From Geoalkalibacter ferrihydriticus DSM 17813 (lineage in GTDB: Bacteria; Desulfobacterota; Desulfuromonadia; Desulfuromonadales; Geoalkalibacteraceae), in contig NZ_JWJD01000001.1 in the NCBI RefSeq assembly GCF_000820505.1, forward strand, positions 449,566 to 513,565: a stretch of 64,000 nucleotides of DNA, in the 5' to 3' direction. Under the pieces are notes generated by a model. It had not been told where the DNA came from and did no database searches. It worked only from the letters and a program-made list of their open reading frames with translations. The position numbers and the translations under genes were made by a program. Positions 1 to 14,610 of this stretch are shown in pieces. How positions within the stretch are numbered: the stretch's first letter is position 1; each line of letters starts with the position of its first letter.

Positions 1-166
1 GCGGCGGTTGAGCGCTGCGGCAAATGTTTGAGCCGCAGGTGAGTTTTTGCCGCACGCGATGCCGCCGGGTCCTGCGGTGCATGCTGAACAGTTACGTAAT
101 CGTTCAAAACAAACGCGGATTTTTGACCGATCCGATTTTTCTGCGGCTATCGGCGTCGCCTGGCTT
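1..166. other. Unassigned left edge
   Basis: This stretch lies beyond the stop codon of mltG. No complete reading frame, RNA gene or clear terminator was found. On the plus strand the first 42 bases read open to a TGA and contain a Cys-x2-Cys pair, so they could be the last few codons of a gene that begins outside the window, but this is too short to support. Confidence 0.3.
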
Positions 167-1186
167 TCAAGGGGATGAATTGCGCGGCGAGAGGATATAG
201 CGGCGCACCGCGCGGTTGTGTTCCTCCAGGGTGCGGGAGAAGACGTGACTGCCGTCACCGCGCGAAACGAAGTACAGGTAGTCGTCATCACTGGGAAACG
301 CCGTGGCTTCGAGGGCAGCGGCACCGGGATTGGCAATGGGGCCGGGCGGCAAGCCGGAAATGACATAGGTGTTGTAGGGGTGAGGATCGCGCAGATGGCG
401 GCGCGTGATACGCCCCGCATAATCCTCGACACCGTACACCACTGTCGGATCGGCTTGCAGACGCATACCCTGCTGCAGGCGGTTATGAAACACCGCGGAA
501 ATCACCGGCTTTTCCCCAGCCGAACCCGCTTCTTTCTGCACGATGGAAGCCAGCGTCACCCACTCATGCAGATCCAGCCCCAACTCTGCCGCGGCCTGTT
601 GCCATTGGGGCAAAGCACGGCGGCGGAATTCGCGCACCATGGCATTAATCAGACGCCGCTCGACGGCGCCGCGCTCCAGCAGGTAGGTCTCGGGAAACAG
701 ATACCCTTCCAAGGACTGCGCCTCAACCCCCAACTGTGTGATCAAATCCGGGTCCCGCGCCAGGGCAAGAAACGTCTCGGCACGGCCGAAGCCCTCGCGC
801 TCAAGGCGTGCGCCGATTTCCCACAGGGTCAGGCCTTCAGGCACCGTAAAAGCGTAACGCAGAACATCACCCACCACCAGCCGGTGCAATATCTCTAATG
901 GCCGCGCCGGCTCCTCGAACCGATAATCCCCCGCATGCACCCGCCCCTGCATTTCCTTGAAGCGTGCCAGGGCAATAAAATAAGCACTGCGACGAATCAC
1001 CTGTTGGTCTTCGAGGTCACGCGCGATACGGACAAAGCCGGTGCCGGGCGCAACCGTCACCACGCGCGGCTCGGAGGGCTGCACAGGCTGGACAAGAAAC
1101 AGGGCGATATCTGCCGTCACCAGCAGCAGCGGTAGAAGGACGGCCGCCGCCAGGGAGGCGAGAAGTATCCGGGTTCTTTTCTTCAT
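167..1186 (-). CDS. mltG: Endolytic murein transglycosylase MltG (YceG-like)
   Basis: Inner-membrane lytic transglycosylase that cuts nascent peptidoglycan strands and is thought to set glycan length. Seen in the sequence: a single N-terminal membrane helix directly after a KKRTR stretch, a LysM-like segment near residues 45-110, and the family core with LASIVQKEAG, whose Glu (about residue 219 from the chosen start) matches the catalytic Glu of MltG, followed by VFHNRLQQGM and the GLPPGPIANPG signature near the C-terminus. Length of about 339 aa is typical. The frame could start three codons earlier at a TTG (1195), but the ATG at 1186 gives the usual basic residues before the helix. It lies 27 bases downstream of plsY in the same direction and may be co-transcribed. 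Confidence 0.93.
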   Translation of the reverse strand: MKKRTRILLASLAAAVLLPLLLVTADIALFLVQPVQPSEPRVVTVAPGTGFVRIARDLEDQQVIRRSAYFIALARFKEMQGRVHAGDYRFEEPARPLEILHRLVVGDVLRYAFTVPEGLTLWEIGARLEREGFGRAETFLALARDPDLITQLGVEAQSLEGYLFPETYLLERGAVERRLINAMVREFRRRALPQWQQAAAELGLDLHEWVTLASIVQKEAGSAGEKPVISAVFHNRLQQGMRLQADPTVVYGVEDYAGRITRRHLRDPHPYNTYVISGLPPGPIANPGAAALEATAFPSDDDYLYFVSRGDGSHVFSRTLEEHNRAVRRYILSPRNSSP

Positions 1187-1213
1187 AAGGGCCAAAGCTT
1201 ACACATCGGGAAC

Positions 1214-1804
1214 TCAGGCACGAAAGCGATTTTCGCTCCCGCTCAAAAGCCGCTCGATATTAGCACGATGACGGAAAATCACTATCCCGCTGATAAGCAG
1301 GGTAACCAAAAACAGAGGCAGGGAGCGCTCAAAAACCACCACCAGCAGAGGAATAGCCCCGGCGGCACAGATAGAGGCCAGGGACACATAGCCCCACTTC
1401 CAGAGGACTCCGGCAAATACCCCCAGGGCCACCAGCACCGAGACGGGCGAGAGCACCAGGTAGATGCCAAGTCCCGTAGCCACACCCTTGCCCCCCTTAA
1501 AACCTATATACACGGGATAGCAGTGTCCCAGAAAGGCCGCCGCCGCGACCAGACTCACCTGCCAGAGCGATTCGGGGAAAACCTGCACGGCCAAAAGCAC
1601 CGGCAGCAGACCCTTGAAGGCATCGAGAATCAGGGTGGCCACCCCAAGACGCCGCCCGCCGACACGATAAACATTGGTGGCACCGATGTTGCCGCTGCCA
1701 ACGTTGCGGATGTCTCCCAGCCCCGCGAGCCGGGTCAGCACCAGTCCGCAGGGTATGGCGCCGATGAAATAGGCCGCCGCCAGCATCAAAATAAATCCGC
1801 TCAT
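1214..1804 (-). CDS. plsY: Acyl-phosphate:glycerol-3-phosphate acyltransferase PlsY
   Basis: Integral membrane enzyme that acylates glycerol-3-phosphate at position 1 from acyl phosphate, the first step of phospholipid synthesis in most bacteria. All three PlsY signatures are visible: GSGNIGATN near residue 38 in the first cytoplasmic loop, GFKGGKGVATGLG near residue 102, and HRANIERLLSGSENR at the C-terminus. The hydrophobic profile fits five to seven membrane helices and 196 aa is the family length. The ATG follows a GAGAGAGC purine stretch. The gene sits just downstream of the terminator that flanks the degenerate tRNA-Pro end, which suggests plsY marks the chromosomal left edge of the accessory region. 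Confidence 0.95.
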   Translation of the reverse strand: MSGFILMLAAAYFIGAIPCGLVLTRLAGLGDIRNVGSGNIGATNVYRVGGRRLGVATLILDAFKGLLPVLLAVQVFPESLWQVSLVAAAAFLGHCYPVYIGFKGGKGVATGLGIYLVLSPVSVLVALGVFAGVLWKWGYVSLASICAAGAIPLLVVVFERSLPLFLVTLLISGIVIFRHRANIERLLSGSENRFRA

Positions 1805-1842
1805 AAAGCTCTCTCGGCAGGGCGCTGTCCCCGCAAAGACAA

Positions 1843-1862
1843 AAAGCGGCCGAAGCCGCTTT
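1843..1862 (-). terminator. Intrinsic terminator beside displaced tRNA-Pro end
   Basis: An 8-bp perfect stem (AAAGCGGC / GCCGCTTT) closes a CGAA loop (TTCG on the minus strand) and is followed on the minus strand by a T-rich run. It lies directly downstream of the tRNA-Pro remnant at 1876-1921. It is therefore probably the original terminator of the tRNA-Pro gene, displaced from it by island insertion. It would also stop read-through into plsY. Confidence 0.8.
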
Positions 1863-1875
1863 GTCGCGCTGAAAA

Positions 1876-1921
1876 TAGTTGGGGCGCGAGGACTCGAACC
1901 TCCGCCCGCCCTGCTCCCGAA
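1876..1921 (-). repeat. Degenerate 3' half of tRNA-Pro (candidate att remnant)
   Basis: About 46 bases match the anticodon-arm-to-CCA half of the intact tRNA-Pro at 14534-14610 with a handful of substitutions and one inserted base. The T-arm and the acceptor 3' strand are recognisable. The CCA end is changed, and the 5' half of a tRNA is absent, so it is not a functional gene. Together with the similar copy at 5032-5076 it looks like an attachment-site duplicate left by element insertion into the tRNA 3' end. Confidence 0.8.
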
Positions 1922-2176
1922 CCCGGCGCATTACGGCGAGGGGTGGGGTTCAAGGTGCATTATTCCCGCAATTGCTTGAACGTTTCTAGCATATCCTCCC
2001 GAAAATGACAAGAATCTTCCTCGGCATGTACCTTGCGCGGGCCTGCTTCCAGAGACGACAAGGAAAGAGTTCATCATCTACTTACTCAGGATGAAACCCT
2101 CTACCATCTGAAGAGTTGGCTTGTTGCCAAAGACTCGCCGTTCCAGCAAAAATGGACCGGACTCTTGTAGAGTTGG
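1922..2176. other. Gap with a possible gene remnant
   Basis: No complete gene. A plus-strand frame open from 2009 to a TAG at 2168-2170 (53 codons, no start codon) has protein-like composition, including YHLKSWLVAKDSPFQQKW. It may be the C-terminal stub of a gene lost during island formation. The family was not recognised. Confidence 0.3.
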
Positions 2177-4105
2177 CTACGGTACCTCCTCTAAATAGGC
2201 TGGACGCGGCTCGAAGCTGGTTTGTTTTTGATCTTTTGTTTCTTTGACACCCTTCAACAGCAAAGCGGCATTCAACACCACCAGCACGGAGCTGACATTG
2301 TGCATCAGCGCGCCGCTGACCGGACCGAGGATGCCGAGAGCAGCAAGAGCAATGGCGCCGAAATTCATGCTCAGAGACAAAATGATATTCTGCTTTATCT
2401 TTTGCGAAACCGCAGTGGCCAGTGCCATGATATAGGGAAGCTTGGCAAGCTCATCCTTGACCAGGATAATGTCCGCGGCATCCGCTGCAATGTCGCTGCC
2501 GATTCCTGCCATGGCGATACCGATGCTCGCGGTTTTCAGCGCCGGTGCGTCATTGATCCCGTCCCCCACCATGCAGACCCTTTCGCCTGAACCCTCGTAC
2601 TCTTCAATCGCCTGCATCTTGCCTTCAGGCAGAAGATTGGCGCGGTAGTCCGCAATACCCACTTGCTGCGATATCTTTGCTGCTATCGCCTGGGCATCGC
2701 CGGTCAGCAGGGTGAGCTTCTTCCTGAACCCGGCCAGACGTTCGACGATTTCTTTGGCGTCAGGCCGCAAAGTATCGGCCAGGGCCAGGGCCCCGACAAC
2801 CTTCTGCTCTATTGCCGCAAAAACCACGCTACGGCCCTCTTCGTTCTGCCGCGTGACGAGATCGGCGAAGACGGGATCCAGAGACAGGCCATGGTCGTTC
2901 AGGATGGAGCGATTCCCTATAATGACCTCCTTGCCCTGCACAACGGCATCGACGCCTTTACCGGGAAGGACCGTGAACTTCTCCGGCTCGCGCACAGCGA
3001 TATTGCGATTTTTGGCGGCCTTGACGATGGCCATCCCCAGCGGATGCTCAGAGTGCATCTCGACCGAAGCGCACAGGTGCAGGAACTCTTCTTCCGTCAG
3101 TGATGAGCCCTCGGCCAGAAAGATCTCTTTGACCTTCGGTTCGCCGTGGGTCAGGGTGCCGGTTTTATCGAAGACGATGCGTTTGACGTGGGTCAGCTGC
3201 TCCAGCGCCGCCCCCGACTTGATGATGACTCCATGCTTGGTCGCATTGCCGATCCCTGCCGCAATAGCCGTGGGCGTTGCCAGAACGAGGGCGCAGGGAC
3301 AAAAGACCACCAGCACGGTAATGGCGCGGATAATGTCGCCGGTGGCGAAGCCGACGACGACCGAGAGCACCAGCGCGACGACAACCAAATAGCTGGCCCA
3401 CTTGTCCATGGTGCGCACAATGGGAGCCTTCTTGTTTTCGGCTTCACTGATCATGGCGATCATGCGCGCGATCGTAGAATCCGCGCCTACCTTGGTCGCC
3501 CGCACCAGGATGCTGCCGTGAATGTTGGTCGTGGCGCTGTACACCTCATCGCCTGCGACTTTATCCACGGGAACGGATTCCCCTGTCATGAGCGCCTGGT
3601 CGACGTTGGTGGCCCCTTCGATCACCACACCGTCGACGGGGATGGTCTCACCGGCGATGATCCGCACGATATCGCCTGCGACCACGTCCTTGGCGGCGAT
3701 CACGGCATATTCGCCGTTTCTTTGTACACGCGCCGTGGCGGGTTTCATGTTCATCAGAGATTTCAGTCCGGCTTTGGATCGCCTCACGGTGTAATCCTCG
3801 AGAAGCCCCCCGATGGCCATGATGAACACCACTTCGCCGGCCGCGAAAAACTCTCCCACCGCCACACAGGCGATGACGGCGATGGAAATGAGCAGGCCGG
3901 CCCGGACATTGCCGTGAAAAATAAGCTTGTAAAAACTGTTGTAGATAACGGGTGCGCCGGAGATGAGGATGGCGCCCCAGGCGGGGTCGATTCCCAACGG
4001 AGCGACATCGGTGGCGATACTCAACAGCAGAAAGACACCGGAAATTGCAGTCAGAAAGATGGCTCGTCTTTCTTCGGCCTCCATCACTGCCCTGAAAAAT
4101 TTCAT
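2177..4105 (-). CDS. P1B-type heavy-metal-translocating ATPase
   Basis: Membrane pump that exports a transition-metal ion using ATP. All core P-type motifs are present: TGES (about residues 174-177, actuator), the CPC metal-site motif in a membrane helix (269-271), DKTGT with the phosphorylated Asp at about 313, the SEHPLG motif of the nucleotide-binding domain, and GDGINDAP near the end. There is no N-terminal metal-binding (HMA) domain with CxxC; the protein begins almost at the first membrane helix. The last helices contain HNVSSVLVVLN rather than the usual Cu(I)-pump pattern, so Zn/Cd/Co or another divalent metal is at least as likely as copper. A good AGGAG lies 5 bases before the ATG. 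A MarR-type gene lies 132 bases upstream on the same strand and probably controls it. Substrate is not determined. Confidence 0.92.
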   Translation of the reverse strand: MKFFRAVMEAEERRAIFLTAISGVFLLLSIATDVAPLGIDPAWGAILISGAPVIYNSFYKLIFHGNVRAGLLISIAVIACVAVGEFFAAGEVVFIMAIGGLLEDYTVRRSKAGLKSLMNMKPATARVQRNGEYAVIAAKDVVAGDIVRIIAGETIPVDGVVIEGATNVDQALMTGESVPVDKVAGDEVYSATTNIHGSILVRATKVGADSTIARMIAMISEAENKKAPIVRTMDKWASYLVVVALVLSVVVGFATGDIIRAITVLVVFCPCALVLATPTAIAAGIGNATKHGVIIKSGAALEQLTHVKRIVFDKTGTLTHGEPKVKEIFLAEGSSLTEEEFLHLCASVEMHSEHPLGMAIVKAAKNRNIAVREPEKFTVLPGKGVDAVVQGKEVIIGNRSILNDHGLSLDPVFADLVTRQNEEGRSVVFAAIEQKVVGALALADTLRPDAKEIVERLAGFRKKLTLLTGDAQAIAAKISQQVGIADYRANLLPEGKMQAIEEYEGSGERVCMVGDGINDAPALKTASIGIAMAGIGSDIAADAADIILVKDELAKLPYIMALATAVSQKIKQNIILSLSMNFGAIALAALGILGPVSGALMHNVSSVLVVLNAALLLKGVKETKDQKQTSFEPRPAYLEEVP

Positions 4106-4237
4106 AAAATTCTCCTGTCCCGCCTCTACCTGCGTAATTCGGTGCCGGGAAAACGTTCATGGTTGTCGTTTTCAATCAAAGGAAAGAGATATCCATCCAT
4201 TGTCGTCCCAGGGCGGATTCCCCCTATTCTTCCCTGG

Positions 4238-4660
4238 TCAGAACCGTTGAACCAGACGCTCCAGATAACCTTTCAGTCTGTCCATCTCCTCATCGTCGAA
4301 GGACGCCGTGATCTCGGCGGTGAGAAGGCAGTGCATCTGATGGTGCTCTTCAAACTGTTCGCGCCCATTCTCGGTCAAAACGATGACATAGGAGCGACGG
4401 TCCGTCGGATGCGGCTGTCGGCTGACCAGACCTTCCCTTTCCAGCCGGTCGACCATGACTGTCAGCGTGCCGGTGGTAATCCCCATCTTTTCGGCCAACT
4501 CTTTCATGCGCAGTTTCTCGTGGTGACCAACGATTTCCACCGCATGCATCTGGGCCGGCGACAGGCCGCTTTTGCGCACCACGGCATGCTCCCAGGAAGA
4601 AATCTTGTCATACAATTCGATAAGAATTTGCGAAAGTTCGATCTGTCGCTGATCGACCAT
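4238..4660 (-). CDS. MarR-family transcriptional regulator
   Basis: About 140 aa with the winged helix-turn-helix of the MarR family: LSPAQMHAVEIVGHHEKLRMKELAEK-type helices, ITTGTLTVMVDRLEREGLV as recognition helix region, and the conserved wing DRRSYVIVLTENG. The start is placed at the ATG at 4660 (MVDQRQIEL), preceded by AGG at 7 bases; an in-frame ATG at 4708 would add 16 residues with no family support. It precedes the P1B ATPase in the same direction, so the likely role is metal- or ligand-responsive control of the pump. No extra cysteine cluster points to a specific metal. Confidence 0.88.
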   Translation of the reverse strand: MVDQRQIELSQILIELYDKISSWEHAVVRKSGLSPAQMHAVEIVGHHEKLRMKELAEKMGITTGTLTVMVDRLEREGLVSRQPHPTDRRSYVIVLTENGREQFEEHHQMHCLLTAEITASFDDEEMDRLKGYLERLVQRF

Positions 4661-4684
4661 GAAGAAACCTTTGCGAATATTAGT

Positions 4685-4727
4685 TTGAAATTCAAGCAAT
4701 CCAAGCATGAAATATCTTGACTGTCAA
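4685..4727. promoter_or_regulatory. Two inverted repeats upstream of marR (candidate operator)
   Basis: TTGAA-A-TTCAA (4685-4695) and TTGAC-T-GTCAA (4717-4727) are 11-bp dyads whose centres are 32 bp apart, about three helical turns. On the minus strand the upstream dyad contains TTGACA, a match to a -35 box, but the sequence 17 bp further on (TTGGAT) is a poor -10. The arrangement fits autoregulation by the MarR protein; no experiment supports it. Confidence 0.45.
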
Positions 4728-4867
4728 ACATTTTCTCACTGGTGCAGGAGAGCCTCGCCTTTTGTCGGATCGACACGGGTTTCTTCCAGCAGGCGAAAAG
4801 ACCGGGTTGTGGGCAGCAAGGACCTGCGAAAAAGTCCCCGGCGTCCCTGTATTCCGCCCGGCGTCGC

Positions 4868-4990
4868 TCAGCCCTGGGCGCAGAGCGCGATGATCTCCGA
4901 ACCGAGAATGCCCGGCACGACCAGGAATTTGCGGTACGATGGCTCTTCGCGATATTGATCGTCGGCAAGGGATATCGCACGTGGACCGGA
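4868..4990 (-). pseudogene. C-terminal remnant of an unidentified gene
   Basis: Reading the minus strand, a frame without a start codon ends at a TGA (4868-4870) and has convincing protein character over about 40 codons, including YRKFLVVPGILGSEIIALC. No complete gene can be built: the frame remains open upstream into the tRNA fragment without a start. The family was not recognised. It lies just left of the second tRNA-Pro fragment and is probably a gene end truncated at an island boundary. Confidence 0.35.
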
Positions 4991-5031
4991 GACGGACCGG
5001 AAACAGAAAATGAAAACTAAAGAGAAAGAGA

Positions 5032-5076
5032 TGGTCGGGGCGAAAGGATTTGAACCTCCGCCCCCCTGCTACCGAA
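5032..5076 (-). repeat. 3' half of tRNA-Pro (candidate att site)
   Basis: Forty-five bases, including the CCA end, match the 3' half of the intact tRNA-Pro (14534-14610) at 41 positions. Similarity stops abruptly at the anticodon loop, and no 5' half follows. This is the expected footprint of tRNA 3'-end integration and splits the accessory region into a 3.1-kb and a 9.5-kb segment. Confidence 0.85.
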
Positions 5077-5412
5077 TTCGGTGAACTCACCTGGGTTACG
5101 ACTGTTTATTTTTGAATAAGCCTATGTGCTAGAAGGGGCTTTCATGAGGGGATGAAATCATCGCTGGTGGAGCAAAACTTGAAGAATGAAGGAAAGGGAT
5201 CATCTTTCATACACCCCCAACGGTAAGAAACCTTGGGTTTTTGAGTTGCGTTCCGAAAACACGGCGGAAGATGATCTCCGGTCTCCGGACCGTAGGTTTA
5301 CCGTAGGGATTTGAAAGCAGCAACACGTGGAACTGGTCTCCGATCAAAGAGGGTATCATGAGACAAAATCAACTTTTCCGGTGGAAGAATGTCAGTATTT
5401 TAGATTTAAGCG
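5077..5412. other. Non-coding gap at island start
   Basis: About 335 bases with no credible gene, RNA or terminator on either strand; every frame is broken by stops. An imperfect dyad (CGGTCTCCGGACCG) lies near 5280. The stretch may hold decayed element sequence. Confidence 0.3.
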
Positions 5413-5462: not shown

Positions 5463-6038
5463 ATGTCTGACGGACCATTCAAGAACCTGAGGCTCACTAA
5501 GCGTTGGAGGAAGTTTACCGAGGCAGCCTATAACGATGCATTCGACCAGATCGAATATTGTGCTATGGCTTCGGATGCAGTTGTTCAAGATGCGCTCACC
5601 GATTCCGTTCGGGCCTTGGTGTCAGCACTCAACTCTTATGTGACTCAAAACCAAATGGACATTGATCCATTGTCATCTTTAGAAAGAATTTTTAACGAAC
5701 ACAGCAAGGATCAATTCGCGGACACCTTGCAGAGAGAGATGAGGTTTCACTTGAGTGAAAAGTGCCTTCCTGGTGAGGCATTGGAACAGGCTTTGGCCGC
5801 ATCAGTTGATGATCAGATCAATATAGCTCGTAACCGCATCCAAGAAGAATGCATTCATTCCTCTGAAATAGGACAAATGAGGCAAGATCAGCTTGATCGA
5901 ACTATCGAGAGAGCCAACTCGGCATTCGAATCCTTAGACAGGCAAAGTATCTGTGAAGCGATAATCGCAGGGAACAAGCAAGCTTTTAAGGGAGCCGTTG
6001 CTAAAAAAGACGGCCTTGAAGAGGGGCCAAGCCTTTGA
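5463..6038 (+). CDS. Hypothetical protein, first gene of QueC-like block
   Basis: 191 aa, mostly predicted helical from composition, acidic, with no signal peptide, membrane helix or recognised catalytic motif. The ATG has a strong AGGGGG at 5452-5457. Its stop overlaps the TTG start of the QueC-like gene, so the two are translationally coupled and the products probably act together. In Qat-type defence loci a protein of unknown function (QatB) precedes the QueC-like QatC; similarity to QatB was not recognised by eye, so this is only a positional analogy. Confidence 0.7.
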   Translation: MSDGPFKNLRLTKRWRKFTEAAYNDAFDQIEYCAMASDAVVQDALTDSVRALVSALNSYVTQNQMDIDPLSSLERIFNEHSKDQFADTLQREMRFHLSEKCLPGEALEQALAASVDDQINIARNRIQEECIHSSEIGQMRQDQLDRTIERANSAFESLDRQSICEAIIAGNKQAFKGAVAKKDGLEEGPSL

Positions 6039-7420
6039 ATTACAATGGGAAAAATAGCTACGGCCTCACCTTGTTGCTCGTTGAAAACAACAATAAGAAA
6101 GCACAAATCGGCCAGAACGGTGCCACTGTTGCTGAGATCGGGAAAGAGATAACCTTCAATCCCGCCATTCTTGATACCTACAACTATGAGGGTTGGAAGC
6201 CGCTACATTATGACTTGTTAGTAGTATGTGCCGCTGTCGAGTTTGCCGATTGCCGCTGTCAACGTCGCCCTACGCAATGGCATCGTCCTTTTCAAATTAC
6301 CGTCCCTGTGTGGGAGTTGGAACGTTGGCAACAGCCAGAAGTCAAAAAGTATCTCGTCGAGACCCTGCGTCATCTGACGGGTGATGATTGGCAATTTTCT
6401 TTTGTTCAAGCTATGTCCTCTGGCCCTAATGAGCACCGCCAACACTCTCTCCCTTTCGCTAATAATAAAGACTTCGCCATAGCCTATAGCGAGGGGCTCG
6501 ACTCACGGTGTGTGTCTGGTATTTACGACCAAGGGGATATAGCCGTTCGAGTCCGGGTTTCGAAACACAAGGACAAGATCAACAAAACCGAGCGCCCGTT
6601 TGACCGGATTCCTTTCGATGCCAAACCCAGGCCATCACCAGAGAGCAGCGTACGTTCCAGAGGATTTAAGTTCGCGGCAATAACCGCAATAGCTGGGCAG
6701 CTTTCCGGTGTTAGCAAAATAATTGTCCCTGAGAGTGGTCAGGGGGCCCTCGGCCCGGTGTTGGTGCCGCTACACAATATCTACTCAGACTACCGAAATC
6801 ATCCAACCTTCTTTCGAAGGATGGAGAAATTTCTTGACGCACTTCTGGAGTACTCAGTCATTTACAAGCAACCCCGTCTCTGGTTCACCAAAGGGCAAAC
6901 TATTTCGGCCTTTCTGGCCCAAACGGGGAGGCCCGAAAAGGACCTATTTGATACGCGCTCCTGCTGGCAAACGCGGCACAATGTCCAGGTGGATGGAAAA
7001 CGCCGGCAGTGCGGCATTTGCGCAGCCTGCTTGCTTCGGCGAATGAGCATGCACGCCGCAGGCGTTGTCGAGCCCGATGATACCTATGCTTTCGCTAATT
7101 TAATGACGACCGACTTCAAGGATGCCTTGCCACAAAACTTCCACGGAAAACCGACCAAATCCATCATCGAGTATGGCAGTGTTGGGTCAAGGCATTTACA
7201 GCAGCTATCAGAATTAGCAGCTCAGCCCGATAACATCTTGCTCCGAGACGCATTTGAGATTTCCCGGGCAACCGGCATGTCACAACAGGAGACAATGACT
7301 AAATTGAAAACTCTTTTGTCGAAACATTCTCAAGAATGGTTCGATTTTATTAACGCCCAAGGAGAGAAAAGCTTTTTACACATTTGGACCAAAGGAGGGC
7401 GTTATGGCCGATCTAAATGA
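6035..7420 (+). CDS. QueC-like (QatC-like) ATP-pyrophosphatase family protein
   Basis: 461 aa, about twice the length of housekeeping QueC, with an added N-terminal region. Two hallmarks support the assignment: a PP-loop SEGLDSR at residues 152-158 (QueC proteins usually have SGGxDS) and a zinc-type cluster with Cys310, Cys326, Cys329 and Cys332 in QCGICAACLLRR, close to the C-terminal Cys motif of QueC. Housekeeping QueC makes 7-cyano-7-deazaguanine; long QueC-like proteins occur instead in anti-phage loci such as Qat and some CBASS types. No queD, queE or queF lies nearby, which argues against queuosine synthesis. Translation seems to begin at a TTG (6035) overlapping the preceding stop, with GAGGGG upstream. 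The substrate is unknown. Confidence 0.75.
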   Translation: MNYNGKNSYGLTLLLVENNNKKAQIGQNGATVAEIGKEITFNPAILDTYNYEGWKPLHYDLLVVCAAVEFADCRCQRRPTQWHRPFQITVPVWELERWQQPEVKKYLVETLRHLTGDDWQFSFVQAMSSGPNEHRQHSLPFANNKDFAIAYSEGLDSRCVSGIYDQGDIAVRVRVSKHKDKINKTERPFDRIPFDAKPRPSPESSVRSRGFKFAAITAIAGQLSGVSKIIVPESGQGALGPVLVPLHNIYSDYRNHPTFFRRMEKFLDALLEYSVIYKQPRLWFTKGQTISAFLAQTGRPEKDLFDTRSCWQTRHNVQVDGKRRQCGICAACLLRRMSMHAAGVVEPDDTYAFANLMTTDFKDALPQNFHGKPTKSIIEYGSVGSRHLQQLSELAAQPDNILLRDAFEISRATGMSQQETMTKLKTLLSKHSQEWFDFINAQGEKSFLHIWTKGGRYGRSK

Positions 7421-8594
7421 ACTCAGTGCACAAGAAATTGGTCGCCGCCTTCGACTTGCTCGCGAAAATGCGGGCATCCGCCAAGACGAAGCAGCACAGG
7501 TCATCGACACGTCGCGTCCGACTCTGGTGTCCATCGAAAAAGGCACGCGGCGCGTTCGCATCCAGGAACTTCAAAAACTTGCGCATCACTATGGGGTGTC
7601 TGTGAATGCTCTGCTGCGTCGCGAAGCCGTGCATACTGACTTGATTCCACGTTTCCGAAAAATGAAGGAAACCGAAGATCACCACGCCGCCGAAGCCGTT
7701 CAATTATTGAATGATCTGGTGAAAGCGGAAGTCGAGCTAGAAAACATCCTTGGCATTGAGCGCCGTAGAAATTATCCCCCGGAACGAGGTGTGAACACCG
7801 GCAATGTAATCGAACTTGCAGAGCAGCATGCACAAGAGTTGCGAGATTGGTTAGGCCTTGGTTCAGGGCCAGTAGCCGACCTATTTACCCTTATAGAACT
7901 GGACCTGGGTATCCGCCTCTATCAGCGGCGGTTGTCCTCGGGTTCAAGAGTAGCGGGGTTATTCACTTATGACTCAGAGATTGGGGCATGCATACTGCTA
8001 AACGCAAATCATCCCTTAGAACGACGTGAACAGTCTGCCGTGCATGAACTAGGTCACTTCTATGGAACGAGGCGCTCGCCTGAGGTTCTTGAAGAGGATG
8101 AACGCTTTCAGTCTCGGGAAGAGCGGTACGCTCATGCATTTGGTCGCTCCTTTATATCGCCGAGAAGAAGTTTCGAAATGAGCTTCCGTCAGTTAACTGC
8201 CGGCGCGGATAAGCTCACGAGACGGCATGTCATACTCCTAGCTCATCAATATCATATCTCACGTGAAGCCTGCATTCGTCGACTCGAAGAACTTAGCCTA
8301 GTTAAAAAAGGGACTTGGGACTGGTTTGAGATGAATGGCGGGATTAAGGACAAGGACGCGAAAATGGTACTCGGTGAGGCAGCCCTTAGGCCTGACCCTG
8401 CAAAGGAGGAAGCCAATCAGCCGCTGTCACACCGAATGAGCTTAATGGCCTATGAAGTTTGGAATCGCGATCTTATGTCTGAGGGGCAACTTGCAGAATT
8501 GTTAAAAATGGGTCGTATTGAGCTTCGGGAACTACTTGATCAAATGGCGCAGGGGGAGAGTAATTCGGATGACCTACTCAAGCTCAATAGCTAA
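7404..8594 (+). CDS. XRE helix-turn-helix regulator fused to ImmA/IrrE metallopeptidase
   Basis: 396 aa. Residues about 10-65 form an XRE-type helix-turn-helix (RRLRLARENAGIRQDEAA then TSRPTLVSIEKG). Residues about 135-260 are an ImmA/IrrE-like zinc peptidase domain with HELGH (His214, Glu215, His218) and a downstream EERYAHAFG that could supply the third ligand. Such fusions act as regulators of mobile elements and toxin-antitoxin-like loci; the peptidase may cleave a repressor. A textbook AGGAGG precedes the ATG, which overlaps the end of the QueC-like gene by 17 bases, and the PIN gene overlaps its own end. This protein is the likely controller of the block and may bind the dyad at 5414-5424. 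Confidence 0.88.
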   Translation: MADLNELSAQEIGRRLRLARENAGIRQDEAAQVIDTSRPTLVSIEKGTRRVRIQELQKLAHHYGVSVNALLRREAVHTDLIPRFRKMKETEDHHAAEAVQLLNDLVKAEVELENILGIERRRNYPPERGVNTGNVIELAEQHAQELRDWLGLGSGPVADLFTLIELDLGIRLYQRRLSSGSRVAGLFTYDSEIGACILLNANHPLERREQSAVHELGHFYGTRRSPEVLEEDERFQSREERYAHAFGRSFISPRRSFEMSFRQLTAGADKLTRRHVILLAHQYHISREACIRRLEELSLVKKGTWDWFEMNGGIKDKDAKMVLGEAALRPDPAKEEANQPLSHRMSLMAYEVWNRDLMSEGQLAELLKMGRIELRELLDQMAQGESNSDDLLKLNS

Positions 8595-9207
8595 CGAGCT
8601 CTCACCGCTGGTGCTTGATACGAGTGTTCTGATAAATCTTCATGCGTGTAAAAGTGGGGGACGTATTCTCAGTGCCCTGCCGAACGAAATTCTGGTGCCA
8701 GAGATTGTGGTTTCAGAATTGAAGCATGAAACGAGCAGGAGCAATGGAGAGCATCAATTTCTTCAGAACTTGATTGCTGCCGAAATAGTGGAAGTGTTCG
8801 ATCTGGATGAGAAGGGATATGAGGTCTACGGCGAGCTTGTATTGGGTCGCTTTTCACTGGATGACGGCGAGGCGGCGACTATTGCTACGGCGGCGCGATT
8901 AAGTTGTTTGCCCGTTATTGACGATCAAAAGGGACGGAACCTCTGCCAATCTCACTTGCCAGATCGAGAGCCGGCCTGGTCACTTGATCTTTTCTGCCAT
9001 CCGCATGTGGTTGCAATCTTGGGAGAAGAGCTGTCAGTAAATGCCATATATCTTGCTTTACACGACGGTCGGATGAGGATTCACAAGGAACATTGTGACT
9101 ATGTCGTCAGCCTTATTGGCGCTCAACGTGCCATCGAGTGTCCCAGCCTTCCGGGCTACAAGGCGAAGAAGCCTCAGTGGGGAAGGGCAACGCATAGCGG
9201 GTTATAG
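8569..9207 (+). CDS. PIN-domain protein, putative RNase
   Basis: About 212 aa. The PIN fold is indicated by LVLDTSVLINL near the N-terminus (first acidic residue), a conserved Glu in VPEIVVSELKHE, and the SLDDGEAATIATAA and VIDDQKGR motifs that carry the remaining acidic residues. PIN proteins are metal-dependent ribonucleases, often toxins. The chosen ATG (8569) lies inside the end of the XRE-ImmA gene and is preceded by AGGGGGAG; an in-frame upstream ATG at 8518 would add 17 residues of doubtful value. Tight overlap with the XRE-ImmA gene suggests a toxin-antitoxin-like pair. It ends 8 bases before the convergent kinase-like gene, with no terminator between. Confidence 0.85.
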   Translation: MTYSSSIANELSPLVLDTSVLINLHACKSGGRILSALPNEILVPEIVVSELKHETSRSNGEHQFLQNLIAAEIVEVFDLDEKGYEVYGELVLGRFSLDDGEAATIATAARLSCLPVIDDQKGRNLCQSHLPDREPAWSLDLFCHPHVVAILGEELSVNAIYLALHDGRMRIHKEHCDYVVSLIGAQRAIECPSLPGYKAKKPQWGRATHSGL

Positions 9208-9215
9208 CAGTGACC

Positions 9216-9887
9216 TCACTGACATTTTTCACCAACTGCCAAGGCTGTCGTTACCATCTCCAGCATCTTCTTTTTCACTGTCTCATCAAAGGCAAAATTA
9301 TTTTTTGCACTATCAATCGTCAGAATCGGTGTTGTCATTTTTGCTTTTTCAATTTGTTTAGAAACGGCATCATTTAAGGCTCTGAGAAAGTTGAGTGTGA
9401 TGTTCTTTTCGACATTCCTGCCACGAGAGCAGATACGATCTAATTCAATTTCAGAATCACACTGAAGATGAACGACCAGAGCAGGTGCGCTTAACTCCTT
9501 CTCAATTTCTAAATACACTGCTTTAAAGGCGGATAGCTGCGAATCTTTCAAACCCATTTCAGCGTAAGCCATATCCAGCAGAAAAGAATAGTCACAAGCT
9601 AAAAATTTGTTTGATGCAGGATGTTTCTTTATTTGATGATAATGCTGAAGGGTAAAGGTTATTTCTGTCTCAAATGCATATTTGACGGGGTCGGCATAAA
9701 ATGCCTTCCAAAAAGGAACCTCGCGAAACGCTTCATAAATGCTTATGAAGCCTGCATTGGCCAATAAAGTTGCAAAAGTAGTTTTACCCGAAGCTATTCC
9801 ACCGCAGATCTCTATTCTTCTATTTATTTTATTAATCTGAGTTGCGTCCTTGCAAATTCTCATACAACAGATTGATCCTTTGATCAT
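9216..9887 (-). CDS. Deoxynucleoside-kinase-like P-loop protein
   Basis: 223 aa. A Walker A motif GGIASGKTT lies at residues 29-37, an acidic CDYSFLLDMAYAE segment near 98-110 resembles the DRS-type motif of deoxynucleoside kinases, and SRGRNVE near 154-160 resembles their arginine-rich lid. The family phosphorylates deoxynucleosides using ATP; the specific base is not readable. The ATG at 9887 has AAGGA 8 bases upstream and lies inside the preceding gene (overlap of 56 bases), so it is the last gene of a coupled four-gene operon. Base composition is markedly AT-richer than the flanking chromosome. It could instead be a P-loop protein that senses nucleotides. Confidence 0.7.
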   Translation of the reverse strand: MIKGSICCMRICKDATQINKINRRIEICGGIASGKTTFATLLANAGFISIYEAFREVPFWKAFYADPVKYAFETEITFTLQHYHQIKKHPASNKFLACDYSFLLDMAYAEMGLKDSQLSAFKAVYLEIEKELSAPALVVHLQCDSEIELDRICSRGRNVEKNITLNFLRALNDAVSKQIEKAKMTTPILTIDSAKNNFAFDETVKKKMLEMVTTALAVGEKCQ

Positions 9888-11085
9888 ATTTTTTTCCTTC
9901 GATTGAACCTAAAATATTTTCTAAACTATTGATCTCTCTTAAAAGGTCATTTTTAAAGCTTTCGGCTTTGTCTGATTCATGAGTAATTCTGTTCGCTAAG
10001 TGCTCTAGCCTTTGATCGATTTGTCTATATTGCCTATTTTGAGCTTCAGTAAATTTAGCGAAATCCTCTTTGTTTTGCTGTATAAGATCTTTTCTAAGCT
10101 CGTTAATGGCCCTATCGAACCCTTCAGGGTCAAATGACTTCTTTATATTGCCTTGCAAGGCATTTGATGAACTCGAGACATAATTATTAGCATCGCTGAC
10201 AACTGATTTTGCCTGGAAAAATACAGCCATCATTGCCCCGACAAGAGCGATAGCACTAATAATACCTAGTACGGTATATAAATTTCTAGATCTATCGGCG
10301 GCTGCTTTGATATCATTGATTTCTTTAATTGATTTTTCTTCTATTTTTTTGATGTGTGTCTCTGACTTTGCCACATATTCCTCGGCGCGCTCTACGGTTT
10401 GCTCTAATGAGCTTTGTACAGAATCGATGCCATCAGGAAGCGCCCTTTTAAAATAGTCATCGAATTTTGGGTCAGCTTTTTTAACGTTACGAGACATTTT
10501 ATCAAAGTCAATATTGTGCTCATCTCCTTCGTCAAACCAAATCTTTGTAAACTCAACAGCGATCAAAGGGTCCCCAGGTCTGATTGAGTAATCATTGTTT
10601 GTAAGGTTGTGGATGGGTATCATTATTTTGCCAACGAATGTTGGATCAATAAGAGGTCCTGTACCCAAGAGCAATCCACGGTGTACATGTGTAATCGAAA
10701 GGTTGAATCTTAATGCAATGTAATATGGCACCAAGAATTTAGGCTCGACTCCGACGAATGTAATTGAATTTCTTTTAAATATAATATGGTCGGTGTTCTT
10801 TAGATCTATTTTATGTTGTTTGTTTTCATGTTTATCCCAGTAAAAAATTTCATTTCCAATTTTCACTTCATACGATGCAGCTTTAAGATCATCAGGGTAG
10901 AATGGGAAAATCATACCCGTTGCAGAAACATACTTTGCTATGTCACGCTTATTAAGGAGTGTTGCCTTAATGCCCGACAAGGGGTCTTTTATTTTTGACT
11001 CATCAAACTTTTTCTTTGCTTCATCTAAAGAGGCAGCAAAATCAAATCGGTCTATTTCTTGCGGAAATATCATGTCAATATCCAA
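9832..11085 (-). CDS. dCTP deaminase/dUTPase-fold protein with coiled coil and membrane helix
   Basis: 417 aa. Residues about 40-185 carry the dCTP deaminase/dUTPase trimer fold: ASYEVKIG near 70 (compare the SYDLRLG type), HRGLLLGTGPLIDPTFVGKI near 135-153, and YSIRPGDPLIAVEF near 166-179. Classical catalytic residues are hard to place by eye, so activity is uncertain. Residues 220-268 are charged and coiled-coil-like, 269-290 form one hydrophobic helix, and 300-417 are another Gln/Glu/Lys-rich coiled coil. This layout is unlike housekeeping Dcd, a soluble enzyme of about 190 aa. The frame starts with a TTG (11085) directly after the purA-like stop; an in-frame ATG at 11073 is an equal candidate. 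dCTP deaminases are established anti-phage effectors that deplete dCTP. Confidence 0.75.
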   Translation of the reverse strand: MDIDMIFPQEIDRFDFAASLDEAKKKFDESKIKDPLSGIKATLLNKRDIAKYVSATGMIFPFYPDDLKAASYEVKIGNEIFYWDKHENKQHKIDLKNTDHIIFKRNSITFVGVEPKFLVPYYIALRFNLSITHVHRGLLLGTGPLIDPTFVGKIMIPIHNLTNNDYSIRPGDPLIAVEFTKIWFDEGDEHNIDFDKMSRNVKKADPKFDDYFKRALPDGIDSVQSSLEQTVERAEEYVAKSETHIKKIEEKSIKEINDIKAAADRSRNLYTVLGIISAIALVGAMMAVFFQAKSVVSDANNYVSSSSNALQGNIKKSFDPEGFDRAINELRKDLIQQNKEDFAKFTEAQNRQYRQIDQRLEHLANRITHESDKAESFKNDLLREINSLENILGSIEGKKYDQRINLLYENLQGRNSD

Positions 11086-12102
11086 TCAATTTGGCGTTTT
11101 GACAAGAGAACTATTAGACGTCCCGACATAATCTATTTTTTTTCTTATGTTGAATTCAACAGATTTAATAAATTCAGAAGCTTTTATTTCAAAACAGTCT
11201 TTTTTAATATTGCTGCAAATATAATCTAGATGATTCATTACAATTCTCGATGGATTATTACACTCGATGGCATTTATTACAATTTTAGGGTCAAATATTG
11301 CTACACGTCTTTTTGTTTTTGTGACAGAGGTTAGTTCTAGTAGACTTTTTCCACTACCAGAGCTCAAAGATACAACATTCCAATCGACCTCATTTTTTAG
11401 TGGCCCAGAATTGCCCCCTACTCTTATTGGGTAAGTCCTAATAACAAGAACAACATCATCCACATCTAAAGGGCTTAGACCTGCCTCAGAAACAAATGCT
11501 GCTGCAGATGTATCTCTACTAGTAGCATAGGGATAGTATTGCGAATGAAGCACTGATAAGCCAAAGCCTTGGGTGCCTTCAATTATTATTCGCTTCCCCT
11601 TAGAAAGGAGATCGCGCATATAGAGGACAACCGGGGCCACATAGCTCTTTAAGCGCTCATCATCTTTTGCCAAGCGTGTAGATCCATCTCTACTAATCCT
11701 TCTAGCTAAGGCGGCGCCCGTTCCGCTGAGTGTGGAACCAATAGATTTTCGTAGGCAACTGTTTTCTTCAGCCCTCTTATCATTGTCAGTGACTATCACC
11801 GCGTTCGGATCGATATGCAGGCGATCGTCGGATAGGCCTGTTTTGGCAATCTCATCAAATAAAATATCTATATCAATGTAACTGCCAGCACCCAAGACAC
11901 AATGAACGTCCGGTAGGATGGAAGGTGTTGGCAGTTGCCTAAGAATCAAAGGGTTTCCATCTGGAGTAATGACCGTGTGCCCAGAATTGGAACCACCTAC
12001 TCGAACGGCAACCTTAGCCCCCATTTCACGGGCAAGGTAATGAGCTACCTTCCCTTTGCCTTCTCCTCCGAATTGTCCACCAACAATGACCGTGACCGGC
12101 AT
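11086..12102 (-). CDS. Short adenylosuccinate-synthetase (PurA/PurZ-like) homologue lacking the catalytic Asp
   Basis: 338 aa, versus about 430 aa for housekeeping PurA; archaeal and phage forms are of this shorter class. Family landmarks are clear: GGQFGGEGKGK at residues 8-18, GGSNSGHTV around His42, an EGTQGFGLS segment, YPYATSRDTSAA, and MNHLDYI at the position of the base-recognising LTKLD. In E. coli PurA the first loop reads GDEGK with catalytic Asp13; here that position is Gly. Phage PurZ, which joins aspartate to dGMP on the way to 2-aminoadenine DNA, is as I recall also altered at this Asp, which should be confirmed. ATG with GGAG upstream; follows the fusion gene by 18 bases. Housekeeping purine synthesis is unlikely in this context. 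Confidence 0.85.
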   Translation of the reverse strand: MPVTVIVGGQFGGEGKGKVAHYLAREMGAKVAVRVGGSNSGHTVITPDGNPLILRQLPTPSILPDVHCVLGAGSYIDIDILFDEIAKTGLSDDRLHIDPNAVIVTDNDKRAEENSCLRKSIGSTLSGTGAALARRISRDGSTRLAKDDERLKSYVAPVVLYMRDLLSKGKRIIIEGTQGFGLSVLHSQYYPYATSRDTSAAAFVSEAGLSPLDVDDVVLVIRTYPIRVGGNSGPLKNEVDWNVVSLSSGSGKSLLELTSVTKTKRRVAIFDPKIVINAIECNNPSRIVMNHLDYICSNIKKDCFEIKASEFIKSVEFNIRKKIDYVGTSNSSLVKTPN

Positions 12103-12120: not shown

Positions 12121-14160
12121 TTATTGGGCGATCTCATCCACTGAGGACTGCAAAGATTTCAAATCTCCATTGTTGCGGATGGTTCTATGCGCCAATAGAG
12201 CAAGTTTACTAATATCTTTCTCTGCAGGGTGGTTACAGGCTACCTTGAATTCCTCGACTGAATGTCCATCAGCAACATATCTTGTAGTGCGAACTGACTC
12301 TGAGGATTCAATATGGGCATGCATAAAAGCTGGCCCGAAGGATTCGATCATAAAGGCGTGATCCTCGGGATGGCGTAACCCATCAATAACGAGTTTGCCT
12401 TGCTCGGGCAGCATTTTAAGTAGTTGTGTGCATAACCAACGCTGACCAGGAGTTTTATTCACCTTCTCACCTATTTCCTGCAGCGTTTCCCTGTTAACGT
12501 CTTCCCCTCGGTCAATCAACATTTGCTTCAATATCTGACTGAACCTACCGTAGGCAAAACCTGCCTCCTCAATAAATTTCGCTGCAGTTGTTTTGCCGGT
12601 GGCAATTGGACCACTGAGGCCAATCACTTTGCGTTCAAGCCAGTTTGTCGTATCCACCTCCAGGTCTGGGATGATGAGGTAATCTTCCTCTTCATTGCCG
12701 ATTGCCTCAAACTTACCGCTCCAGAAGAAAAGCCCAACGACAGCCGAAGTGATGGCGTCGAGTTCATCGTGACAAACTTGTTCGGTCAGATAATTGCCTT
12801 TGACGCCAAAGAGCTCCAGCCCTTTAGATAAATAATCAAGACTTGCCCCTTTGCGCGGTATGCCCATGATGTCCTGGGCCGCACCGGGGTAGCTTTCTAT
12901 CACCGGGACACCCAGTTTGCGAAAACGTTCCGCAAGACGCATTCCCCGGGCCGTTAATTGCTGCATGCTGGGAATCAGCGAGGGGTAAACATTCACCCCG
13001 CGTTTTTTCAACAACCGCTCACACTTACGCATGATGCCGAATTCGTGACGGCCGGGGTCGCTGTCATCTACAGAGGTTCGGCCAAACGGAATCGACAGTG
13101 GTGAGTCAATAGAGACTAGGTCGGGTTTCACCTTCAGGGTTTCGTTTATCAGATCCTCATCCGGCCCAAGGCATTTTGTTTCAGCTAAGTCATGATTGAG
13201 AAAACACCAACCAGAGGGACGGCCTTCGCTCCCGGTCAGATCAATCCCCACGACCCTAAGACCTTGCTGTTTTGGGAGCGCCAGTTCGTCAAGGAAGACG
13301 AGAGGACCTATTTTGCCTCCGTATGGGCGAATAACAATGCCATCTGGTTTGTCGGTTTTCTTGTTTGCCCAATTGATTTTGCTTCTTCTTTTTGCGAATT
13401 TTGGAAGAGTAATTTTACTGGTTGGAAGCTGATAGTTTTTTAGCAGGATCTTCGCAACCTTGTCGAAGATCACCTTCATCCCCTCAACATCCGCATGATT
13501 GTAAACAATCAGCTGGCGAAGAGCCTTTTCATCGCCCCATTTGTATTTGTGCCAGAGAAGCGTCGCCTTCAATCCATCAACTTCAGCGGCCTTGGCTGAT
13601 CGTTTTAGGCCCAGTTGTTCCTCAATGACCTTTTGTCCACCACTGAAACCAGCGCGTTTAGACATAAAACGTAGATCGACGTGACAGGCAGGGAAGCGAA
13701 TATCTTCAAACTCATTTCTGATAAACGGTAAGTCAAAAATTGATCCATTAAACGTTACTATTGCCTTTGCAGAGGACAATGCTTTGCGAAATTCTGAATC
13801 GTCATCACCTTGAAGATAGACACCGTATTCGGTACCGATACTCCAACCAATTAAAGTAATCTTGTCGTAGTACTTGCTTAGACCCGTTGTCTCGATATCG
13901 AGAAACATGGTGTCTTCAGGGTAGGTCAGGGCAATCCGGAAATGCTCTTGGTGCGGCAGGGATGTTGCAAAATACTCAACATCGCCTGCTTCAAGTGCAA
14001 GCCTTGATTCTTGAAGGAACGAAGCAGTATGTTCAAAAAGCGATAGCTGGGAGTTGTACGCGTTTTCGAAATCATCCCAAGTGAAGGTATAGGCGCGCCA
14101 AAGCTCAGCCTCCTTTTTTGCCCCAAATCCCTTGAGATGTCGAAACGTATACTGGAGCAT
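12121..14160 (-). CDS. Fusion: DEDD exonuclease - DUF429 - P-loop (deoxy)nucleotide kinase-like
   Basis: 679 aa with three readable parts. Residues 80-240 resemble YprB-type RNase H-like 3'-5' exonucleases: FLDIETTG (Asp88, Glu90), FNGSIFDLPF (Asp143) and NHADVEGM (Asp224) supply a DEDD set. Residues about 300-487 match DUF429, a predicted RNase H-fold domain: GIDLTGS (Asp307), SIDSPLSIP (Asp352), VYPSLIPSMQ, ESYPGAAQDIMG and HDELDA. Residues 511-679 form a P-loop domain with GPIATGKTT (517-525) and VIDGLRHPED, like dephospho-CoA or phage dNMP kinases. It is the first gene of the four-gene operon: AGAGGA precedes the ATG, and a good promoter lies 69 bp upstream. The joining of two nuclease folds to a kinase fold suggests processing of nucleic acid into nucleotides or guarding of nucleotide pools. 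Function is unknown. Confidence 0.82.
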   Translation of the reverse strand: MLQYTFRHLKGFGAKKEAELWRAYTFTWDDFENAYNSQLSLFEHTASFLQESRLALEAGDVEYFATSLPHQEHFRIALTYPEDTMFLDIETTGLSKYYDKITLIGWSIGTEYGVYLQGDDDSEFRKALSSAKAIVTFNGSIFDLPFIRNEFEDIRFPACHVDLRFMSKRAGFSGGQKVIEEQLGLKRSAKAAEVDGLKATLLWHKYKWGDEKALRQLIVYNHADVEGMKVIFDKVAKILLKNYQLPTSKITLPKFAKRRSKINWANKKTDKPDGIVIRPYGGKIGPLVFLDELALPKQQGLRVVGIDLTGSEGRPSGWCFLNHDLAETKCLGPDEDLINETLKVKPDLVSIDSPLSIPFGRTSVDDSDPGRHEFGIMRKCERLLKKRGVNVYPSLIPSMQQLTARGMRLAERFRKLGVPVIESYPGAAQDIMGIPRKGASLDYLSKGLELFGVKGNYLTEQVCHDELDAITSAVVGLFFWSGKFEAIGNEEEDYLIIPDLEVDTTNWLERKVIGLSGPIATGKTTAAKFIEEAGFAYGRFSQILKQMLIDRGEDVNRETLQEIGEKVNKTPGQRWLCTQLLKMLPEQGKLVIDGLRHPEDHAFMIESFGPAFMHAHIESSESVRTTRYVADGHSVEEFKVACNHPAEKDISKLALLAHRTIRNNGDLKSLQSSVDEIAQ

Positions 14161-14472: not shown

Positions 14473-14533
14473 ATTTTGTCTTTTTCGGCTTCCGCACTCG
14501 AGATCGAAAGCCTATGAAACGCAAGGAGGAAAA

Positions 14534-14610
<77 letters not shown>

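Follow-up and report, generated by a model that had tools for sequence, protein, structure and literature searches.

A PurZ-like adenylosuccinate synthetase homologue in a mobile cellular operon: a candidate module for 2-aminoadenine nucleotides

Introduction

What does an adenylosuccinate synthetase homologue do when the catalytic aspartate of PurA is replaced by glycine? The question is raised by a gene in a 64,000-nt stretch of the genome of Geoalkalibacter ferrihydriticus DSM 17813 (contig NZ_JWJD01000001.1; hereafter the window), the product of which is named PurX here, our own name for this PurZ-like protein. The initial annotation had proposed either a substrate other than that of PurA, with the guanine nucleotide of PurZ as an example, or a binding role for the protein. 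2-Aminoadenine (Z) in DNA is known from phages; if the interpretation favoured below is true, a conserved, mobile, cell-encoded PurZ-type operon brings this letter into cellular genomes and points to a specific candidate for a cellular relative of whatever gave rise to phage PurZ.

Sequence and active site of PurX

PurX is encoded by an intact open reading frame (Table 1), and the protein begins with MPVTVIVGGQFGGEGKGK. Alignment to PurA showed Gly at residue 13 in place of the Asp found in 9/9 Asp-type rows (eight PurA and one homologue from a deazapurine-type cluster), bearing out the reading of the loop in the initial annotation together with two further points made there, retention of the E. 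coli His41 equivalent (His42) and a short, archaeal-like length. A sequencing error at the loop was excluded because the Gly13 codon, GGA, is at least two base changes away from any Asp codon and Gly is present at this position in 15 other genomes. The equivalents of Lys16, Asn38, Thr129, Arg143, Gln224, Val273, Arg305 and Asp333 are also retained in PurX, and these residues and His41 were present in all 17 operon rows of the alignment.

Table 1 Features of the PurX operon and of the island that carries it (positions are those of the window)
Feature	Position	Strand	Remarks
Gene 1, exonuclease / DUF429-like / kinase-like protein	12121-14160	-	679 aa
Gene 1, DEDDy 3'-5' exonuclease domain	about aa 85-234		Pfam RNase_H_2, 95 bits
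Gene 1, DUF429-like RNase H-fold domain	about aa 304-498		DUF429, 13 bits, below cut-off
Gene 1, C-terminal dNMP-kinase-like P-loop domain	about aa 505-679		AAA_18, 24 bits, below cut-off
PurX (PurZ-like adenylosuccinate synthetase homologue)	11086-12102	-	338 aa, ATG start, intact ORF
Gly12 and Gly13 codons (GGA GGA), loop GGQFGGEGKGK	12062-12067	-	nucleotide sequence
Gene 3, dCTP-deaminase/dUTPase fold with a transmembrane segment in long coiled coils	9832-11085	-	417 aa from TTG start
Gene 4, deoxynucleoside kinase (dNK)	9216-9887	-	223 aa as called; 56-nt overlap with gene 3
tRNA-Pro(CGG), island boundary	14534-14610	-	
Degenerate 53-nt direct copy of the tRNA-Pro end, att-like far end	5031-5083		87% to 14533-14585

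The loop after Val273 reads IRVGGNSGP in the window PurX versus TRVGxGP in PurA, and its longer form was found in 17/17 operon rows, 3/3 PurZ0 and 4/4 PurZ rows and in 0/9 Asp-type rows. In S-2L PurZ an insertion after this Val pulls it towards the sugar C2', according to the accessible part of PMC8342488, which also reports that phage PurZ is active with Ser at position 13. Base-pocket residues of S-2L PurZ were taken from the same source and matched by motif, S-2L being outside the alignment; Gly12, Asn38, Thr129, Gln224 and Val273 are the same in PurX, and the differences are Ser for Ala39 and Gly for Ser at position 13.

Position 303 is Thr in the window PurX and Arg in 9/9 Asp-type rows. 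In PurA, Arg303 contacts the ribose of IMP. It is lost in all eight rows of the window's clade and retained in 4/17 operon rows (L011, L012, L017 and L066), and for this reason a preference for deoxynucleotides might not extend to all PurX proteins. Asp333 is shared by the 17 operon rows, PurA and PurZ0, with Asn in all four PurZ rows, and because PurX retains it as PurA does, the residue suggests GTP as the probable phosphate donor. PurZ0 is said, in a 2023 paper, to use GTP; the portion of PMC12884076 available to us gives the nucleotide donors the other way round.

Gly13 itself, singled out in the initial annotation as the unusual point, did not prove distinctive, since operon relatives have Gly or Ser and phage PurZ has Ser. 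Gly was present in 14/14 loci of the pattern scan behind most of the relatives, but one of its six patterns was GQFGGEGK, which biased the list towards Gly, and a profile search without this bias recovered two operons (L186 and L187) with Ser at position 13; Gly was accordingly rejected as a hallmark of the operon. The accessible part of PMC12884076 reports Ser at this position in 147 phage sequences and Ser or Gly in four archaeal ones. As far as sequences can tell, the PurZ side of the family is recognized by a small residue at position 13 rather than by Gly as such, and Ser or Gly in place of Asp13 provides a practical flag for bacterial, archaeal and plasmid 'adenylosuccinate synthetases' that are probably not PurA.

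Phylogenetic placement

The superfamily model PF00709 matched PurX with 162.5 bits (cut-off 27), and the two best NCBIfam models both fell short of their cut-offs: the archaeal-type PurA model PRK04293 (267/368 bits) and the PurZ model NF038379 (233.5/300 bits). The other curated PurA cut-off was likewise unmet (TIGR00184, 171/396 bits). In a 45-row tree, 12 Asp13-type rows were split with support of 100/100 from 33 Ser/Gly rows (16 operon PurX, six viral-contig, three kinase-fused, three PurZ0, three PurZ and two other), and in a 53-row tree the nine Asp-type rows again stood apart at 100/100. A phylogeny, one of the checks proposed beforehand, thus placed PurX apart from all PurA rows. A first tree of 34 rows had weak deep forks (65/89) and put PurZ0 and the kinase-fused plasmid rows on the PurA side, an arrangement that changed when more rows were added. 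L013, in which the PurX frame holds a stop and lies in two pieces, was left out of alignment A1 and the trees, L007 was left out of alignment A1, and L030, which has a masked stretch, was left out of the trees; the last tree was additionally built without L007, L019, L024, L053, L057 and L096.

The tree is unrooted and runs from PurA through PurX to PurZ. The PurX rows, intermixed with Ser-type viral proteins, occupy the region between PurA and the phage clades, on the PurZ side yet outside the phage PurZ and PurZ0 clades. PurA, operon PurX, the viral rows and L048 together form one side of a branch supported at 94/93. A clade of PurA and operon PurX without the interleaved viral rows was rejected by the AU test (p 0.0001), a result that says little because viral rows sit among the operon rows. 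The states Asp, Ser and Gly at position 13 require at least five changes on the tree versus a minimum of two; Ser and Gly have therefore interchanged. Given the tree position and a separate full-length, normal PurA on another contig of the window's genome, PurX is not a miscalled PurA. Another PurA-family gene was present in 13/14 genomes of the pattern-scan relatives; a genome search of G014 found none.

Compared with known families, PurX resembles the Z-phage 2-amino-deoxyadenylosuccinate synthetases PurZ and PurZ0 (NF038379, PHROG 1211) in the small residue for Asp13, the base-pocket residues, the longer loop after Val273, the short archaeal-like length and the side of the tree (100/100). 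It differs from them in having Gly rather than Ser, in scoring below the NF038379 cut-off, in lying outside the phage clades and in being encoded by a cellular operon with other partner genes, not by a phage Z cluster. The archaeal-type PurA of P. horikoshii (2d7u, PRK04293) is similar in length and was the joint best single-sequence PDB match of PurX (161 bits), but PurX lacks Asp13 and Arg303, has the longer loop and falls on the other side of the tree. The four archaeal PurZ-related sequences of PMC12884076, reported as basal to phage PurZ, share the replacement of Asp13 and may belong to the PurX family (their identity is untested); unlike for PurX, no operon is described for them in the accessible part of that paper.

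Genes of the operon

PurX is the second of four minus-strand genes (Table 1); 18 nt separate it from gene 1, gene 3 follows it directly, and genes 3 and 4 overlap by 56 nt. Promoter- and terminator-like sites were no commoner than in shuffled sequence. In gene 1 the catalytic D-E-D-Y-D residues (D88, E90, D143, Y220 and D224) were invariant in 14/14 rows, and the predicted model (mean pLDDT 66, moderate confidence) is similar in structure to DEDD exonucleases, NrnC among them. A DUF429 match (E up to 0.01) was obtained for 5/14 members, and aa 510-678 of the window protein matched a PHROG annotated 'deoxynucleoside monophosphate kinase' (2.3e-10). Three parts of gene 1, an N-terminal stretch, the exonuclease region and the kinase domain, gave no match in PDB sequence searches. 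A Dyadobacter plasmid (L237:4432-6594) encodes a DUF429-like protein on its own, with 55% identity to the middle domain of gene 1, and the gene adjoins a DACNG/DACNH diadenylate cyclase.

Gene 3 scored below both relevant cut-offs (TIGR02274, 32/93 bits; Pfam DCD, 25.8/27 bits), and its predicted model aligned with the Mycobacterium tuberculosis dCTP deaminase:dUTPase 2qlp at a TM score of 0.82 by target, meeting the criterion for a shared fold. Alignment with 8y1w and 9ln0 and the family alignment showed that the phosphate motif, for which we assume the name RSS, and the deaminase Glu, at what we take to be its place, are absent. Arg126 and Asn128 were present in 14/14 rows of the DCD-like domain and the dUTPase-type Asp in 13/14. 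Because the RSS motif and the deaminase Glu are lost, functional DCD or dUTPase activity is doubted and dNTP hydrolysis by gene 3 appears doubtful. Hydropathy peaked at 2.56 at residue 272, and a membrane-type peak (>1.6) was found in 13/14 DCD-like A2 rows (not L048) as well as in L186 and L187. Gene 3 thus shares the fold and the dUTPase-type Asp with the dCTP deaminase/dUTPase superfamily, which includes phage DutZ, but differs from it by the two losses and by an added membrane and coiled-coil tail. Proteins of the dUTPase fold are known companions of PurZ, since DutZ of Z phages, a dUTPase relative, hydrolyses dATP and dGTP (PMC12884076, accessible part).

Gene 4 met the Pfam dNK cut-off (87.8 bits vs 27), and its family profile was closest to the deoxynucleoside kinase 8puu and the deoxyguanosine kinases 2jas and 2jaq. 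Profile searches of the window operon found no DatZ, MazZ or DpoZ match, and the operon lacks the partners typical of a Z cluster, DatZ, MazZ, DutZ/DmtZ or DpoZ.

Distribution across genomes

Including the window's own, 18 genomes encode PurX with a DCD-like gene, and 17 of these also have the exonuclease gene. The 14 loci of the pattern scan come from Thermodesulfobacteriota, Myxococcota, Nitrospirota, Chloroflexota, WOR-3, Acidobacteriota and two archaeal MAGs, the archaeal members being on short contigs (10 and 4.4 kb). All 14 have gene 3 after PurX, 13 have gene 1 (not L017) and nine have gene 4; the contigs of L007 and L015 stop short of the place where gene 4 would be expected. The kinase domain lies within gene 1 in seven A3 rows, the window among them, and is encoded separately in L015, L016, L186 and L187; searches turned up no kinase gene alongside the operon in L011 or L017. 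Three further genomes came from profile searches: G150, with genes for the exonuclease-DUF429 protein, PurX, DCD and dNK, and G511 and G529, in which exonuclease-DUF429 and kinase genes accompany those for PurX and DCD and there is no dNK match.

Sampling within larger groups showed a patchy distribution. The operon was present in 2/395 sampled genomes of the window's phylum, its own included. Around G013, 4/347 Acidobacteriota genomes gave matches, one of which (G694) was a PurX without the operon. Around G014, seven matches in 350 Chloroflexota genomes comprised one operon PurX (G014), one kinase-PurX fusion (G781) and five Asp13 proteins. Three of these five (L202, L203 and L204) have GDSGKGK and NAGAS, that is, Asp13 is present with Ala at the place of His41, a deviation from PurA of another kind. 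In the archaeal sample 198/392 genomes had a match, and the 25 loci inspected were two operon PurX and 23 Asp13 PurA. Directly upstream of the operon in three Acidobacteriota loci (L016:5318-5707, L186:5779-6180 and L187:5489-5941) are small divergent genes with weak helix-turn-helix matches, which could perhaps regulate it.

Island and mobility

The tRNA-Pro gene and the degenerate copy of its end bound an island of 9.5 kb, and the operon genes in it have a G+C content of 37-48% versus 58% for the window. A complete genome of the same genus, G339, gave no PurX match and has about 135 nt between the left-flank gene (window 164-1865) and tRNA-Pro; 45 nt of the 53-nt copy match the tRNA of this empty site at 93%. 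G339 also lacks 1866-5030, which holds a P-type ATPase gene, and the difference between the genomes therefore exceeds the island bounded by the repeats. Genes for tyrosine integrases are found close to PurX in L007, L015 and L231. Further cargo of the window island (5463-9207, plus strand) is defence-like and comprises an unassigned 191-aa gene, a QatC/QueC-like gene (NF041925, 117/280 bits), an HTH+M78 regulator and a PIN-domain gene.

Pathway links

The dNMP-kinase-like domain is fused to PurX on three Rhizobiaceae plasmids and in one Chloroflexota genome, with Ser at position 13 in the three fusions read (L049, L058 and L200), and this fusion ties the kinase to the product of PurX. Adenylosuccinate lyase (purB) adjoins the operon on the same strand in two MAGs (L011 and L013), upstream in one and downstream in the other and with different C-terminal domain matches; the L013 match itself reached 316/326 bits. 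Neither MAG is complete and neither has a second strong purB match, so that these may be housekeeping copies with the operon alongside. A Ser-type PurX and a DCD gene occur together on a Sinorhizobium plasmid, with a divergent YfbR-like deoxynucleotidase gene next to them. In L231 (4449-9374) and L058 the kinase-PurX fusion adjoins a DUF7002 gene, with M78 and integrase genes also present in L231, a possible second recurrent PurX cassette. Rhizobium plasmid pRL23b2 (L050) carries a PurA-like gene with purB, folE, queC, queE and genes for 6-carboxytetrahydropterin synthase, IMP dehydrogenase and a nitrile hydratase subunit, and the cluster looks like a 7-deazapurine cluster.

Proposed function

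With slightly better than even confidence, we interpret the operon as a mobile cellular module that converts dGMP to dZMP and dZTP, in which PurX is a PurZ-type enzyme and not an IMP-using PurA. The sequence, phylogeny, synteny, gene fusion, island and empty site are established by the analysis, and the reactions, the deoxy preference, the order of the steps and the benefit to the host are inferred. The suggestion of a substrate other than that of PurA, such as a guanine nucleotide, gained support from the 100/100 split of the tree, from the PurZ-type features of PurX (loss of Asp13, the longer IRVGGNSGP loop and, in the window's clade, loss of Arg303) and from the context (the dNMP-kinase-like domain, the deoxynucleoside kinase and purB in two loci), all of it evidence from sequence.

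In the proposed pathway, dNK would phosphorylate salvaged deoxyguanosine to dGMP, and PurX would join (d)GMP, most likely dGMP, to Asp at the expense of a purine triphosphate, probably GTP, yielding 2-amino-N6-succinyl-dAMP. Gly13, having no Asp carboxylate, would leave room for the 2-amino group of guanine, like Ser in phage PurZ. The PurB of the host, encoded next to the operon in two relatives, would convert the succinyl product to dZMP, which would be phosphorylated to dZDP by the dNMP-kinase-like domain and then to dZTP by host Ndk, for incorporation by host polymerases. The DNA itself would be the target of the DEDDy exonuclease/DUF429-like protein, and the DCD-like membrane protein might be a nucleotide-binding sensor or a divergent dNTP hydrolase; its role is the weakest point of this explanation. 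Three phage genes put significant Z into E. coli DNA, with toxicity, according to the accessible part of PMC8342488, and host enzymes can therefore complete such a path.

The presence of the operon in distant bacteria and in archaea suggests that cells, and not phages alone, may make Z. More tentatively, and in our view rather less likely true than not, several bacterial phyla and some archaea would carry a mobile host-side Z operon, with its own exonuclease/DUF429-like protein and a membrane nucleotide-sensing DCD protein, that marks or guards their own DNA or poisons invading replication, and would form a reservoir in cells that is related to the origin of phage PurZ. PurZ itself is known, and the accessible part of PMC12884076 reports four archaeal PurZ-related sequences with Ser or Gly; no published account of this cellular operon was found in the literature searched, which included few subscription journals and no preprints, and there is an appreciable chance that the operon represents a new cellular system. 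Its partners are open to direct assay, among them the kinase-PurX fusions, an exonuclease that possibly tells A from Z and the DCD-type membrane protein.

Alternative explanations

A sensor-effector system is a serious rival to the Z module, although we consider it unlikely. PurX and the kinases would then make an unusual (deoxy)nucleotide that is sensed by the altered DCD domain, the membrane segment would stop infected cells, and the exonuclease/DUF429-like protein would supply or remove DNA-derived nucleotides. A DCD-like domain that has lost the RSS motif and the deaminase Glu and yet keeps Arg126, Asn128 and, in 13/14 rows, the dUTPase-type Asp would suit a sensor, as would its recurrent membrane-type hydropathy peak. 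The surroundings point the same way, with the QatC-like, HTH+M78 and PIN genes of the window island, restriction-modification genes in L004, a SIR2-like gene in L005, an ion-channel gene downstream in L179, the diadenylate cyclase beside a DUF429-like domain, and the patchy distribution in the window's phylum. These neighbours were identified in some loci only and so provide no statistic for a defence context, PADLOC gave no match for PurX, and the kinases and the exonuclease fit a supply of nucleotides to DNA equally well.

The substrate of PurX might instead be another 2-substituted or a damaged purine nucleotide, with the operon serving sanitation or hypermodification, and this we regard as quite improbable. 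The pocket is roomier with Gly than with the Ser of phage PurZ, and the PurA homologue in the deazapurine-like cluster of L050 implies, by inference, that the family does move to other purines. Gly and Ser, however, both occur among otherwise similar operon rows, and with at least five changes at position 13 on the tree Gly alone is no mark of a new substrate.

There is little to recommend a PurA-like protein that has lost catalysis and serves in regulation or in binding, the latter being the second possibility raised in the initial annotation: the residue lost is the catalytic base of PurA, but the other active-site residues examined are present in 17/17 operon rows, phage PurZ is active with Ser at position 13 (PMC8342488, accessible part), a kinase domain is fused to relatives of PurX and the neighbouring genes look like those of pathway enzymes. 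That PurX should be an ordinary adenylosuccinate synthetase acting on IMP, its loop change being either tolerated or an error in the sequence, is hardly credible, for although PF00709 and the archaeal PurA models match and the length is of the archaeal type, the tree split, the GGA codon, Gly in 15 other genomes, Asp13 in 23/23 inspected archaeal PurA loci and the separate full-length PurA of the window's genome all oppose it.

Viral relatives and origin

A scan of viral sequences with the single PurX protein found no relative, and a scan with the PurX profile recovered 79 loci. With four cellular rows set aside, the viral-contig rows had Ser at position 13 in 75 cases and Gly in one (L096), seven rows being unaligned there. 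Weak dUTPase-type matches (19-30 bits) were found around the PurX homologue in 17 loci. DCD-like proteins with a C-terminal hydrophobic segment and a partly retained phosphate motif are encoded on four viral contigs (L173, L174, L177 and L178). A phage origin of the operon was considered and rejected: gene 1 had no match among 50,697 phage records, and the only further operon gene around the viral-scan homologues (E 1e-4) was a kinase fragment in L144. On this viral-labelled 5.9-kb contig (L144:5430-5857) the operon begins inside the kinase domain, from residue 590 on, the start of PurX is 84% identical to that of the window, and the sequence upstream has no match to gene 1, as if an element had been joined within gene 1.
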